A DNA stretch of 34,397 bases, taken from NCBI GenBank assembly GCA_023251945.1, contig JAHEXT010000006.1:1-34397 (forward strand). Direction: 5' to 3'. Position numbers and translations under genes: made by a program. The notes below the pieces were generated by a model. It saw only the letters and a program-made list of their open reading frames with translations. It had not been told where the DNA came from and searched no databases. The stretch's first letter is position 1. The number at the start of each line of letters is the position of its first letter. Shown piece after piece: positions 26,982 to 30,749 of this stretch. Source of the stretch: Actinomycetes bacterium (GTDB lineage: Bacteria; Actinomycetota; Thermoleophilia; Gaiellales; Gaiellaceae).

Positions 26982-27197
26982 TCAGCAGGTACGGGGGGCC
27001 GAGTCGTCGGCGACGAACCCGACCCGCTTGTGGCTGGAGTCGCAGAACGGCTTCGTCCGCGAGTGCCCGCAGCGGCAGAGCGCGATCGCGCTTCCCTCGG
27101 GCAGCACGAACTCGTTTCCCTCCGCGTCGATGATCCGCACCGATCCTTCGATCTTGTACGGGCCGTTCGCACGGGCTTTGATCGTGACCTCCGTCAT
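26982..27197 (-). CDS. CDGSH iron-sulfur protein
   Basis: A 71-residue protein with one CDGSH motif: CRCGHSRTKPFCDSSH, ligands Cys41, Cys43, Cys52 and His56, which bind a labile 2Fe-2S cluster. The N-terminal half (ANGPYKIEGSVRIIDAEGNEFVL) is the usual beta extension of the single-CDGSH type. ATG 27197 is preferred over the TTG five codons upstream. A -10-like TACCTT ends 6 nt before it, so the mRNA may be leaderless. It may supply an electron or a cluster to the downstream radical SAM enzyme; this is inference from adjacency. Confidence 0.9.
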   Translation of the reverse strand: MTEVTIKARANGPYKIEGSVRIIDAEGNEFVLPEGSAIALCRCGHSRTKPFCDSSHKRVGFVADDSAPRTC

Positions 27198-27209: not shown

Positions 27210-27213
27210 CAAG

Positions 27214-27292
27214 CAGCGCCGCGGCCGCGAAAGCCGCCTTCAGGGATTTTCGCGCGAGCAGAATCCGCGCTCGCGGATTCTGCTCTTGCGCA
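27214..27292 (-). repeat. Two-hairpin repeat element, copy 1
   Basis: Read on the minus strand: GCGC-AA, a perfect 13-bp stem (GAGCAGAATCCGC / GCGGATTCTGCTC, arms at 27285-27273 and 27268-27256) with loop GAGC, GCGC, then GAAAATCCCTGAAGG. A second short stem-loop of GCGGC/GCCGC follows. The same layout occurs three more times at 29660-29971 with different stem bases. It fills the space between the divergent CDGSH and glycosyltransferase-PHP genes. Confidence 0.75.
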
Positions 27293-27316: not shown

Positions 27317-29047
27317 GTGGGCCTCCGGATCTGCTTCGTCACGCCCTTCGCGTGGTCGCAGCCGCACGAGGTGAACGCGCACGTGGCCGGGACCGCGGCC
27401 GCGCTCCGGCAGCTCGGGCATTCGGTGACCGTCCTCGCTCCGTCCACGCGAGCGAGAGACCTGCTCGCCGGGAGACGTGCCCTCCAGCGCGGGAACGACG
27501 CGGAGGTGATCGCCGTGGGCCCCTCGATCCCCTTGTCTCGAAGAACGCACATGGGAGTGCCGGTCGGCGTACGAGCCAACCTCGCCCTCGCCCTACGCCG
27601 CGGCCACTACGACGTGGTGCACGGCTTCGAGCCCGGTCTGCCGAGCCTCTCGTACCTCGCGCTCACGGCCACGCATGCGCTCACGGCAGCCACGTTCTTC
27701 TCGCCCGACCGCCTAGGCTATCCCGCACGGAGGGCCCGTCGAGACCGGTTGCGCATCCGCCTCGACGCGCTCCTCGCCACCTCGGAGGAGACGGTGACCG
27801 CCGCCGCCGCGCGCTTCGACGGCGACTACCGGCTCGTGGCGCTCGGCGTGGACACGGAGCTCTTCCGACCCGGGAGGAAACGGAACCTGATCGCTCTCGA
27901 GCTCGAGCCTGCGGGAAGAGCTGTCACCCGTGCTCTGGCCCGCGCTCTCCGCGACCTCCCCGGCTGGGAGCTCCACCTCCTCCACACGAAGCCTCTCGGC
28001 TTCCGCCCGGCGATTCCCCGCTCCGTCCGCTCGAGGGTTCATGTCCGCTCGGTGCGACGGCCGGAGCAGCGCGCCGGAACGCTCGCGGAAGTGGCGATCT
28101 TCGTCCCCGCCCCCGAAGGTGAGCAGCGGCTCGCGCTGGAGGCTGCGGCGTGCGCGGCTGCGGTCGCCGACGGCGACGGCCCCGAGAAGGCGGCACAGGA
28201 GGTCTTGCGCCTCGTCCGCGACGAGACGCACCGAGCTCGAGTGGCCACCGACGGTCGGGCGGCCGCCGAGGCACAGGGCTTCGACCGGGTCGCCGGAGAC
28301 CTCGACGCGCTGTATTCGCGTCTGACGCGCAAGAAGCGGCTGCGGATCGACGACTCGAGACGGGACGACCCGCTCGCCGGTCGGGACTGGATCGCGGTCG
28401 ACCTGCACATGCACACGGACTGGTCGCACGACTGCTCGATCGCAGCCGAAGACCTCCTCGACCATGCCGAGGACATCGGCCTCGGCGGGATCGCGGTCAC
28501 CGATCACAACGCGTTCGGAGGCGCCCTCGAGGCGGTCGAGCTGGCTCGGCGTCGCAACCTTGTCGTCATCCCCGGCGAGGAGGTCAAGACGGACGGTCAA
28601 GGAGAGGTGATCGGCCTCTTCCTGGACGAGGAGATCCCGCGCGGGATGTCCTTCGCGGACACGATCGCGGCGATTCGTGAGCAGGAGGGTCTCGTCTATC
28701 TCCCCCACCCGTTCGATCGGATGCACGCGATCCCCGACCCCGCGACGCTCCACCGCCACCTTGCGGAGATCGACGTCTTCGAGGTCTTCAACGCGCGGCT
28801 CCTGCGCGACTCGTTCAACGACGAGGCGCTGCGTTTCGCGCGCAAGTACCGGCTCCTTCAGGGCGCCGGCTCCGATGCGCACGTGCTCCAGGGCGCCGGG
28901 ACGGGAGCGATGCGGATGCGGCGCTTCGACGGGCCGGAGGAGTTCCTGCTCTCGCTGCGCACGGCCGAGGTTCTGCGCCGCCCGAAGTCGCTCGCCTACC
29001 TCCAGTCGCTCAAGTGGGTCGCCCAGGTCAAGGAAAAGGTCCGCTAA
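27317..29047 (+). CDS. PimA-like glycosyltransferase fused to a PHP phosphoesterase
   Basis: A 576-residue two-domain protein. Residues 1 to about 345 are a GT-B (GT4) glycosyltransferase. The N-terminus ICFVTPFAWSQPHEVNAHVAGTAAALRQLGHSVTVLAPS resembles PimA (phosphatidylinositol mannosyltransferase), and an E-x7-E motif (EGEQRLALE) is present near 266. The usual GR-x4-KG donor motif is degenerate (ALELEPAGRAV). Residues from about 358 are a PHP domain with all four motifs: DLHMHTDWSHDCS, TDHNAFGG, PGEEVKTDGQGEVIG, YLPHPFDR and GSDAH. The fusion suggests glycosyl transfer and phosphate removal in one pathway, possibly on an inositol-phosphate compound given nearby ino1; this is inference. GTG start; the UDG-like gene follows after 21 nt. 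Confidence 0.85.
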   Translation: MGLRICFVTPFAWSQPHEVNAHVAGTAAALRQLGHSVTVLAPSTRARDLLAGRRALQRGNDAEVIAVGPSIPLSRRTHMGVPVGVRANLALALRRGHYDVVHGFEPGLPSLSYLALTATHALTAATFFSPDRLGYPARRARRDRLRIRLDALLATSEETVTAAAARFDGDYRLVALGVDTELFRPGRKRNLIALELEPAGRAVTRALARALRDLPGWELHLLHTKPLGFRPAIPRSVRSRVHVRSVRRPEQRAGTLAEVAIFVPAPEGEQRLALEAAACAAAVADGDGPEKAAQEVLRLVRDETHRARVATDGRAAAEAQGFDRVAGDLDALYSRLTRKKRLRIDDSRRDDPLAGRDWIAVDLHMHTDWSHDCSIAAEDLLDHAEDIGLGGIAVTDHNAFGGALEAVELARRRNLVVIPGEEVKTDGQGEVIGLFLDEEIPRGMSFADTIAAIREQEGLVYLPHPFDRMHAIPDPATLHRHLAEIDVFEVFNARLLRDSFNDEALRFARKYRLLQGAGSDAHVLQGAGTGAMRMRRFDGPEEFLLSLRTAEVLRRPKSLAYLQSLKWVAQVKEKVR

Positions 29048-29068: not shown

Positions 29069-29662
29069 GTGCCCGCGGCCGTGCCCACCGACGAGATCTA
29101 CGAGCGCTACCTCAAGAAGGCCATCTCCGAGATCAACGAGCTCGGGGACGAGCTCGCCCGCGAGGGCGACGAGCTGCGCGTCCCGGTGCTCGGATCGGGC
29201 CACCCACTCGCCGACGTCTTCCTCCTGAAGTACGCACCGCAGCCGTCGGAGATCCAGGAGGGTGTCGCCTTCTTCGGGCGCGCGGGCCAGGCGGTCCTCA
29301 AGTCGCTCCAGCGCCTGCACGTCGATCCGCTCGCCGTGTACGGCACGAACTGCCTCAAGTTCGGCACGGAGGATCCTGCCGACGCTGCAGCCTGGCTGAC
29401 GCGCGAGCTCCACATCGTGCAGCCGAAGCTCCTGATCGCCATGGGTCAGCGGTCCGTTGCGTTCGTCAACGACCTCCGCTTTCCCCTCTCCGACCCCGTC
29501 GATCCGCAGACCGAGGGTGCCGTCCTGCGCTTCACGCCGACGATCGGGGCGCTCGTCACCCCCGACGTCGACGAGTCGCTCGACGACCAGCCGTCCAAGA
29601 CGCGGTTCTGGAACGCCTTCAAGGCGCTCGGCCCCTGGTGGGCGGAGCAGCCCCCGTACTGA
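29069..29662 (+). CDS. Uracil-DNA-glycosylase-like protein
   Basis: A 197-residue protein of the UDG superfamily. YAPQPSEIQEGVAFFGRAGQAVLKSL corresponds to the family 4/5 region GEAPGxxE-x-GxPFvGraG. YGTNCLKFG matches the strand with the conserved Asn, and HIVQPKLLIAMGQRSVAF matches the helix before the active-site loop. It has only one cysteine, so it cannot hold the four-Cys 4Fe-4S cluster of families 4 and 5. The HPS-type motif is replaced by TPDVDESL. Uracil excision is therefore uncertain. GTG 29069 has GGGAG about 10 nt upstream. Its TGA stop is also the first three bases of the 114-bp repeat. Confidence 0.75.
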   Translation: MPAAVPTDEIYERYLKKAISEINELGDELAREGDELRVPVLGSGHPLADVFLLKYAPQPSEIQEGVAFFGRAGQAVLKSLQRLHVDPLAVYGTNCLKFGTEDPADAAAWLTRELHIVQPKLLIAMGQRSVAFVNDLRFPLSDPVDPQTEGAVLRFTPTIGALVTPDVDESLDDQPSKTRFWNAFKALGPWWAEQPPY

Positions 29663-29773
29663 TGCGCAAGACCGGGAATCCGCAGAAGCAGATTCCCGGT
29701 CGCGCAGAAGAGCCCCTGAAGCGCAGCAGCTTCGCTGCCGCTGGTGTGCGCGGTCGTCCGTCCCGCCGCCTCC
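29660..29773 (+). repeat. Two-hairpin repeat element, copy 2 (114-bp unit)
   Basis: It begins with the TGA stop of the UDG-like gene. Hairpin 1 is GACCGGGAATCCGC / GCAGATTCCCGGTC (one mismatch, loop AGAA), flanked by GCGC on both sides. AGAAGAGCCCCTGAAGC follows, then hairpin 2 GCAGC-TTC-GCTGC. About 30 bp of tail completes the unit, which is repeated exactly in the next 114 bp. Confidence 0.85.
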
Positions 29774-29887
29774 TGATGCGCAAGACCGGGAATCCGCAGA
29801 AGCAGATTCCCGGTCGCGCAGAAGAGCCCCTGAAGCGCAGCAGCTTCGCTGCCGCTGGTGTGCGCGGTCGTCCGTCCCGCCGCCTCC
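29774..29887 (+). repeat. Two-hairpin repeat element, copy 3 (perfect duplicate)
   Basis: By eye it is identical, base for base, to 29660-29773 (period 114 bp, a multiple of three). Such identity suggests a recent duplication, while the element itself is older, judging by the diverged copies 1 and 4. Confidence 0.85.
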
Positions 29888-29971
29888 TGATGCGCGCGGC
29901 CGGAATCCGCTCGCGCGGATCCTGGTCGCGCGAAGATCCCTGAAGCGCGGCCGCTTCGCGGCTGCGGCGCC
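29888..29971 (+). repeat. Two-hairpin repeat element, copy 4 (diverged)
   Basis: It starts with the same TGATGCGC. Hairpin 1 is GGCCGGAATCCGC / GCGGATCCTGGTC with loop TCGC (12 of 13 pairs, two of them G-T), flanked by GCGC. GAAGATCCCTGAAGC follows, then hairpin 2 GCCGC-TTC-GCGGC. It ends two bases before the ATG at 29973. Together with copies 2 and 3 it fills the whole 310-bp gap between two genes. Confidence 0.8.
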
Positions 29972-29972
29972 A

Positions 29973-30725
29973 ATGAACCTCGAACCTCGATCCCGGATAG
30001 GTCGCTCCCACTGGCGTGCGCTCGCGCTCGCGGTCCTCGGTGCGGCGCTCGTCGCCTACGGCGCCGTCGCGGAGCACCTCTGGGGGCTTCCCTCTGGCCT
30101 CGACGTCGCCGTCCACAGCCTTCTCGTCTTCCCCGCCTTCGCCGCCGCGATCTGGGTGGCGCTGCCGCTGGCCCGGATCCCGAGCGTGCAGCTCCTCGTC
30201 GCCGCGGCCGTTGTCGCCCTTGCGGCGTTCGGGCTCACGCTGATCGGAGCAGGGTCGGCCGCGAACGTTTCCAAGCTCGCCTGCTACGCGCTCCTCGGCT
30301 ACTGGTTCGTCTCTCTGTTCGAAGAGCTCTGGTGGGTCGCCCTCGTCGCCGTGCTCGTCCCCTGGGTCGACGTCTGGTCGGTCGCGGCCGGCCCGACGCG
30401 CTACGTCGTCGAGGAGCAGCCCGGCTTCTTCGAGCGCATCTCCGTCGGATTCCCGAATCCGGGGGAGACGGCGACGGTGAACATCGGCCCACCGGACGTG
30501 ATCTTCTTCGCGCTCTTCCTCGCCGCCGCGGACCGCTTCGGGCTCCGCGTCGGCTGGACCTGGCTCACGATGACCGGCTTCCTTGCAGCGACGCTCGCAC
30601 TCGTCTGGACGTGGGACGTCTCAGGCCTGCCCGCGCTCCCAGCCGTCTGCCTCGGCTTCCTCCTCCCGAACGCCGACCTGCTCTGGCGCAACATGCGTGA
30701 TGCACGCGCCGCCGCTCGCATGTAG
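29973..30725 (+). CDS. Candidate presenilin-like (A22-type) intramembrane aspartyl protease
   Basis: A 250-residue polytopic membrane protein with about eight or nine helices. Three features echo presenilin/signal-peptide-peptidase homologues: Asp133 in a helix (VPWVDVWSVAAGPT, like the YD motif), Asp175 at the start of the next helix (NIGPPDVIFFALFLAA, like GxGD), and a PAL motif at 220-222 (LPALPAV) near the C-terminus. A hydrophilic loop lies between the two Asp helices, as in the family. The GxGD glycine is Pro (GPPD), so activity is uncertain. The start ATG 29973 is the first that leads into the membrane part. It converges with the rRNA methyltransferase gene. It could instead be an unrelated multipass protein. 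Confidence 0.65.
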   Translation: MNLEPRSRIGRSHWRALALAVLGAALVAYGAVAEHLWGLPSGLDVAVHSLLVFPAFAAAIWVALPLARIPSVQLLVAAAVVALAAFGLTLIGAGSAANVSKLACYALLGYWFVSLFEELWWVALVAVLVPWVDVWSVAAGPTRYVVEEQPGFFERISVGFPNPGETATVNIGPPDVIFFALFLAAADRFGLRVGWTWLTMTGFLAATLALVWTWDVSGLPALPAVCLGFLLPNADLLWRNMRDARAAARM

Positions 30726-30749
30726 GAGCCGGGCATGCCCGGCTCCTAC
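30722..30749. terminator. Shared palindromic terminator between convergent genes
   Basis: GTAGGAGCCGGGCA (30722-30735) and TGCCCGGCTCCTAC (30736-30749) are exact reverse complements, a perfect 28-bp palindrome. It contains the TAG stops of both convergent genes (30723-30725 plus strand; 30748-30746 minus strand). The GC-rich hairpin has no T-run, so it resembles the U-less bidirectional terminators reported in actinobacteria. Confidence 0.65.

Follow-up and report, generated by a model that had tools for sequence, protein, structure and literature searches.

Repeat copies and genes at the locus

The window, meaning the whole 34,397-nucleotide stretch that was analysed, is contig C71 of the genome G000 (1.28 Mb, 63% complete) and harbors four copies of a two-hairpin repeat, as the initial annotation claimed. 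All four are matched in cmsearch, with E-values from 2e-17 to 1.5e-12, by a covariance model seeded with 13 genome copies. Copy 1 (27212-27291, minus strand) lies between two divergent genes, a CDGSH gene (26982-27197, minus strand) and a glycosyltransferase/PHP gene (27317-29047, plus strand). The product of the latter is a 576-residue fusion of a glycosyltransferase-4-like N-terminus and a PHP domain, and most genomes of the genus have an orthologue. The remaining copies, all on the plus strand, make up an insertion at 29663-29972 between a UDG-superfamily gene and the next gene, a junction that nearly abuts in sister genomes.

Copy 2 (29664-29750) starts no more than 2 nt past the stop codon of the UDG-superfamily gene (29660-29662) and consists of hairpin 1 (about 29664-29705), the linker sequence CCCTGAAG (29714-29721) and hairpin 2 (about 29722-29743). 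Copy 3 (29778-29864) is a tandem duplicate of copy 2, and the duplication spans 29652-29879 on the plus strand as two 114-bp units (29652-29765 and 29766-29879) that are 97% identical, so that only three of the four window copies are independent. The units include flanking sequence, showing a recent local duplication. Copy 4 (29892-29974) is diverged, with hairpin 1 at about 29892-29931, CCCTGAAG at 29938-29945 and hairpin 2 at about 29946-29964, and its end meets the start of the next gene (29973). Opposite-strand matches at 22-31 bits were rejected as extra copies; they are shadows of the palindromes. Farther along, a perfect 26-bp palindrome, TAGGAGCCGGGCATGCCCGGCTCCTA (30723-30748), reaches from the stop codon of the 29973-30725 gene to the convergent 30746-32113 gene and is probably a bidirectional terminator.

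The layout first described, in which a stem and loop framed by GCGC are followed by a linker ending in CCCTGAAG and a second hairpin, is correct. The consensus reads GCGC-AA-GACCGGAATCCGC-TNGC-GCGGATTCCGGTC-GCGC-GAARAT-CCCTGAAG-GCGGCCGC-TTC-GCGGCCGC, with an element length of approximately 82 bp, or 100-110 bp with its ends, and a family range of about 80-110 bp. Two details of the original description need amendment. The tetraloop given for hairpin 1 does not apply to copies 2 and 3, in which the loop is bigger, and the copy 4 stem GGCCGG/CTGGTC pairs only by way of two G.T wobbles and adjoins an A.C mismatch. The AA of hairpin 1 is unpaired in 59 of 81 copies, and the unpaired CCCTGAAG linker is nearly invariant.

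Covariation and spread of the family

The claim that covariation means preserved structure holds in an extended alignment of 81 copies, made with MAFFT on sequence alone. Covariation is strong in this alignment: paired cells amount to 93.5%, and both sides have changed in 17 of 25 pairs, comprising 12 of the 13 inner pairs of hairpin 1 and five of the eight pairs of hairpin 2. The outer GCGC helix hardly varies. Cells with double changes, which are phylogenetically non-independent, number 86, whereas shuffles give 10.5 ± 2.9 and slid controls no more than 20. These changes show that both hairpins are kept through compensatory change. Paired changes can also arise without function, as quasi-palindrome correction is an established mutational process in palindromes, and intrastrand template switching in a decaying repeat could in principle yield double changes with no selection on structure. 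Such a process should neither produce a strand-specific excess of one mismatch class across many stem positions nor keep the unpaired CCCTGAAG linker nearly invariant, and it is considered very unlikely as the source of the pattern.

The further genome copies that the initial annotation proposed to look for are present. The exact motif GCGCN6CCCTGAAG occurs 12 times in G000, compared with once for a reversed control, and the covariance model detects at least 35 distinct copies at 66 bits or more in the 1.28 Mb available. Congeners range from one or few copies (G001, G006 and G007) to dozens (G009 and G010); raw counts, for which no more than 150 candidates per genome were scored, are up to twofold too high through opposite-strand palindrome matches. 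In one array of G009 (L175, contig C218), the repeat has expanded compactly in tandem, at least four copies being separated by short joints and spaced at approximately 79 bp. Across the Gaiellaceae the distribution is patchy, with matches at E ≤ 1e-6 in 22 of 103 genomes and six of 34 genera. The restriction to one genus suggested by the exact motif is thus wrong, as the covariance model finds the family in six. The named records bearing the motif are MAGs of Gaiellaceae, Thermoleophilia or Actinomycetota, and a narrow literature search found no paper on repeats in Gaiellales or this uncultured group of Actinomycetota.

Gene ends, empty sites and an apparently constrained strand

Nearly all copies are intergenic, typically 5-30 bp from a stop codon. 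Their placement was examined in the stretches surrounding the copies, with genes called by a simple codon-usage caller trained in this analysis. Gaps with repeats comprise 13 convergent, 29 tandem and three divergent cases, compared with 37, 207 and 42 among gaps without (chi-squared p=0.013), an enrichment of convergent and a depletion of divergent gaps. In tandem gaps, the repeat lies antiparallel to the genes, with its reverse complement in sense, in 21 of 29 cases (p=0.024).

The suggestion of a REP-like mobile palindrome describes the behavior of the family well, as the repeat is dispersed, intergenic, located beside gene 3' ends and missing at the orthologous sites of sister species. At the window array, the insert measures 310 bp, and in the sisters the UDG stop codon is followed at once by the next gene. 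Four further sites were compared, three of which have syntenic empty orthologues; sister gaps of 4/18/36, 6/2/-1/2 and -4/10/-4/5/3 bp correspond to gaps of 113, 103 and 102 bp in G000. The fourth junction (L136) is empty and intact in no sister, and a G005 copy lies beside the same downstream gene. Orthologous junctions without the repeat indicate present or past mobility of the family. Some insertions are shared between species and are older: at the copy 1 site, G005 retains a degenerate copy with matching position and orientation and the other sisters are empty, and at the L142 site G008 has a truncated copy.

The stems carry a marked strand asymmetry. On the strand first annotated, stem mismatches comprise 57 A.C and 11 G.T, in a tally that excludes one pair, often T opposite C. 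Since A.C mismatches become G.T or G.U wobbles on the reverse complement, one particular single strand is apparently constrained, and it appears to be the reverse complement of the strand as written, which also forms the more stable fold with RNA as well as DNA parameters. These properties are consistent with a structured RNA or 3'-UTR element, kept by selection, whose minus strand would fold at the mRNA 3' end and there protect the transcript, terminate it or be processed. The sense orientation of the reverse complement in tandem gaps and the distribution between convergent and divergent gaps point in the same direction. However, the repeat has no U tract and no Rfam match above the gathering score, and its copies at orthologous genes vary from species to species, which means that no gene relies on them. 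The ratio of A.C to G.T is biased alike in every orientation to the neighboring genes (16:1, 18:3, 10:4 and 3:1), and the asymmetry is therefore a property of the element and not of the host transcript. In the unpaired linker, G>A changes exceed C>T changes (31 vs 8), and mutational bias, which may contribute to the asymmetry, is thus a partial rival to strand constraint; for A>G and T>C, the per-site asymmetry in the linker is not clear. Selection for a role in the transcript is accordingly judged an unlikely account of the family as a whole.

A constrained single strand also fits the HUH chemistry of a REP/REPIN-type repeat, in which single-stranded DNA would be moved by a RAYT (Y1 HUH transposase) recognizing a 5' tetranucleotide together with hairpin 1 and the AA left unpaired in it. 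Published REPs, REPINs and BIMEs (PMC3733652, PMC3116915) resemble the repeat in size, intergenic location near gene 3' ends, tandem clusters that include flanks, compensatory hairpin changes and an unpaired AA in the stem, the last of which recalls the AA-GC bulge of the Escherichia coli REP (PMC8266576). RAYT-like Y1 genes occur in six of 11 genomes of the genus, but the RAYT/Y1 link raised in the initial annotation finds no backing there. Copies flank none of the 10 Y1 genes of the genus (no match at E < 0.1 in fetched surroundings of up to 8 kb on each side), the genes are not one orthologous group, and they do not track copy number: the Y1-rich genomes G004 and G007 are copy-poor, whereas no Y1 gene was found in the copy-rich G000, G002 and G003. 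The repeat also differs from REPs in having two dissimilar hairpins in fixed order joined by the conserved CCCTGAAG linker, and no fixed GTAG or CGTC tag. GTAG occurs in a minority of copies at a variable distance from the stem, CGTC-like 5-mers are not clearly enriched, and a 5' GTAG would lie on the strand opposite to the constrained one. Mobilization by a RAYT is therefore held to be improbable. Separately, a RAYT-like Y1 subgroup (L110, L112, L113 and L116, in G010, G004 and G007) bears TGACACC at the ORF end, the stop codon plus ACC, which possibly marks the ends of an element of its own.

CTAG sites, IS982-type termini and the origin of the repeat

The borders of the repeat suggest a different relationship. 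In 19 of 66 copies, a CTAG is found no more than 16 nt from the left end, compared with none in three shifted control windows. Gene 3' ends as such carry CTAG in 27 of 256 cases, so the enrichment at repeats is approximately threefold over the proper background; for YTAG, the proportions are 17 of 46 repeat-adjacent gene 3' ends and 31 of 256 others. CTAG is enriched at both ends of the repeat, with exact matching duplications in few copies. The one clean comparison of empty and filled states is the L124 site, at which one CTAG or TTAG, formed by two convergent stop codons that overlap, is present in two sisters and G000 reads TTAG-element-CTAC. The right end agrees with TTTCACATCAAGCCT in at least 10 of 15 positions in 34 of 95 copies, compared with 0-3 of 82-91 in control windows, and in all 15 in a copy on contig C1 of G009. 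No more than roughly one copy in three retains a recognizable right end or a CTAG. A search for perfect terminal inverted repeats at the two ends of the repeat found none.

In the same genus, an IS982-family insertion sequence that makes CTAG duplications has TTTCACATCAAGCCT as its terminal inverted repeat. A genus-wide search with part of TTTCACATCAAGCCT led to this element, to a set of MITEs and to a cassette. The insertion sequence (G004, contig C24) is 974 bp long, has CTAG on both sides and matches TTTCACATCAAGCCT in 15/15 and 13/15 terminal positions; its transposase is assigned to IS982 by NF033520 (155.5 bits, cut-off 130). Like known members of the family (PMC7335449), the element has a transposase, the likely helper, above the NCBIfam IS982 cut-off, is approximately 1 kb long and makes short direct repeats. 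It is unlike them in its 4-bp CTAG duplication and in its termini, which begin AGG instead of the AC with which the inverted repeats of most, although not all, members begin. On the same contig, at approximately 7.1-8.0 kb (L262), a second CTAG-bounded IS982-type element has ends ATGATTGATGCCACGG and a transposase 36% identical to the first. MITEs of 61-165 bp with the same termini and CTAG-like flanks occur in G001, G003, G006 and G009. The 165-bp MITE of G001 resembles the linker over 8 bases, TCCCTGAA, probably through chance, as a related G006 MITE lacks this stretch. The 802-bp cassette (L251:1501-2302, contig C87 of G006) is bounded by CTAG on either side and has inverted ends that match perfectly over 15 bp (AGGCTTGATGTGAAA). 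It contains a 197-residue lipoprotein-like ORF with no Pfam match, contains no transposase and is a predicted passenger cassette. The CTAG or CTAG-like borders of the two G004 elements, the MITEs and the cassette support, by comparison, IS982-type transposition into CTAG in the genus, and the repeat carries one end of this type.

The repeat is short, non-coding, multi-copy and insertion-polymorphic, as MITEs are. We lean, with somewhat better than even confidence, toward a non-autonomous, MITE-like and REP-like two-hairpin element that would be cross-mobilized by IS982-type transposases. Such transposases would move the repeat in trans into CTAG or TAG sites, and its insertions would be expected to terminate at AGGCTTGATGTG and to be flanked by a CTAG-type duplication of 4 bp. 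In these GC-rich genomes, such sites would be rare inside genes and concentrated at stop codons, which would bring the copies snug against gene 3' ends. Hairpins in that position may be tolerated or useful in the transcript, and tandem copies would stem from later local duplication. Against an IS982-type origin, the left end, which by eye reads (Y)AGYTTGCGC, does not resemble the IS repeat to a significant degree, and the hairpin lies at a variable distance from CTAG (1 to 11 nt and more). Searches for an intact IS982 transposase succeeded in G004 alone; G003 has a fragment, and none was found in the copy-rich genomes, which are mostly incomplete but include G010 (92%) and G008 (95%).

A MITE derived from IS982 has a precedent in Cardinium (PMC9769881), which is likewise short, non-coding and multi-copy and has a terminal sequence in common with an IS982-family element of the same lineage. 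The present repeat differs from it and from other IS-derived MITEs in having the IS repeat at one end only, two internal covarying hairpins and a CTAG target, and from IS-derived MITEs in that its parent transposase was not found in most copy-rich genomes. Correia- and ERIC-type MITEs (PMC10969869), compared with it by description, are also dispersed and intergenic, fold in transcripts and may affect mRNA, but are longer and have proper inverted termini.

The covarying hairpins have a further bearing on the mechanism. DDE transposases act on double-stranded DNA. By themselves, they give no explanation of a strand-specific hairpin constraint. It is conceivable, although doubtful, that one end of the element is of the ordinary IS982 type and that a folded single strand defines the other. 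The two hairpins of the minus strand would then act as RNA or single-stranded DNA, in the spread of the element or in host 3'-end control, and a DDE-type element would carry a strand-specific structural constraint. If the origin in cross-mobilization by IS982-type transposases is confirmed, REP-like repeats that keep their structure and hug gene 3' ends would arise without a RAYT, and a CTAG target coinciding with stop codons would link them to a DDE insertion sequence instead. The question of what spreads palindromic repeats that lack a RAYT, such as the CGTC REPs, would then become testable.
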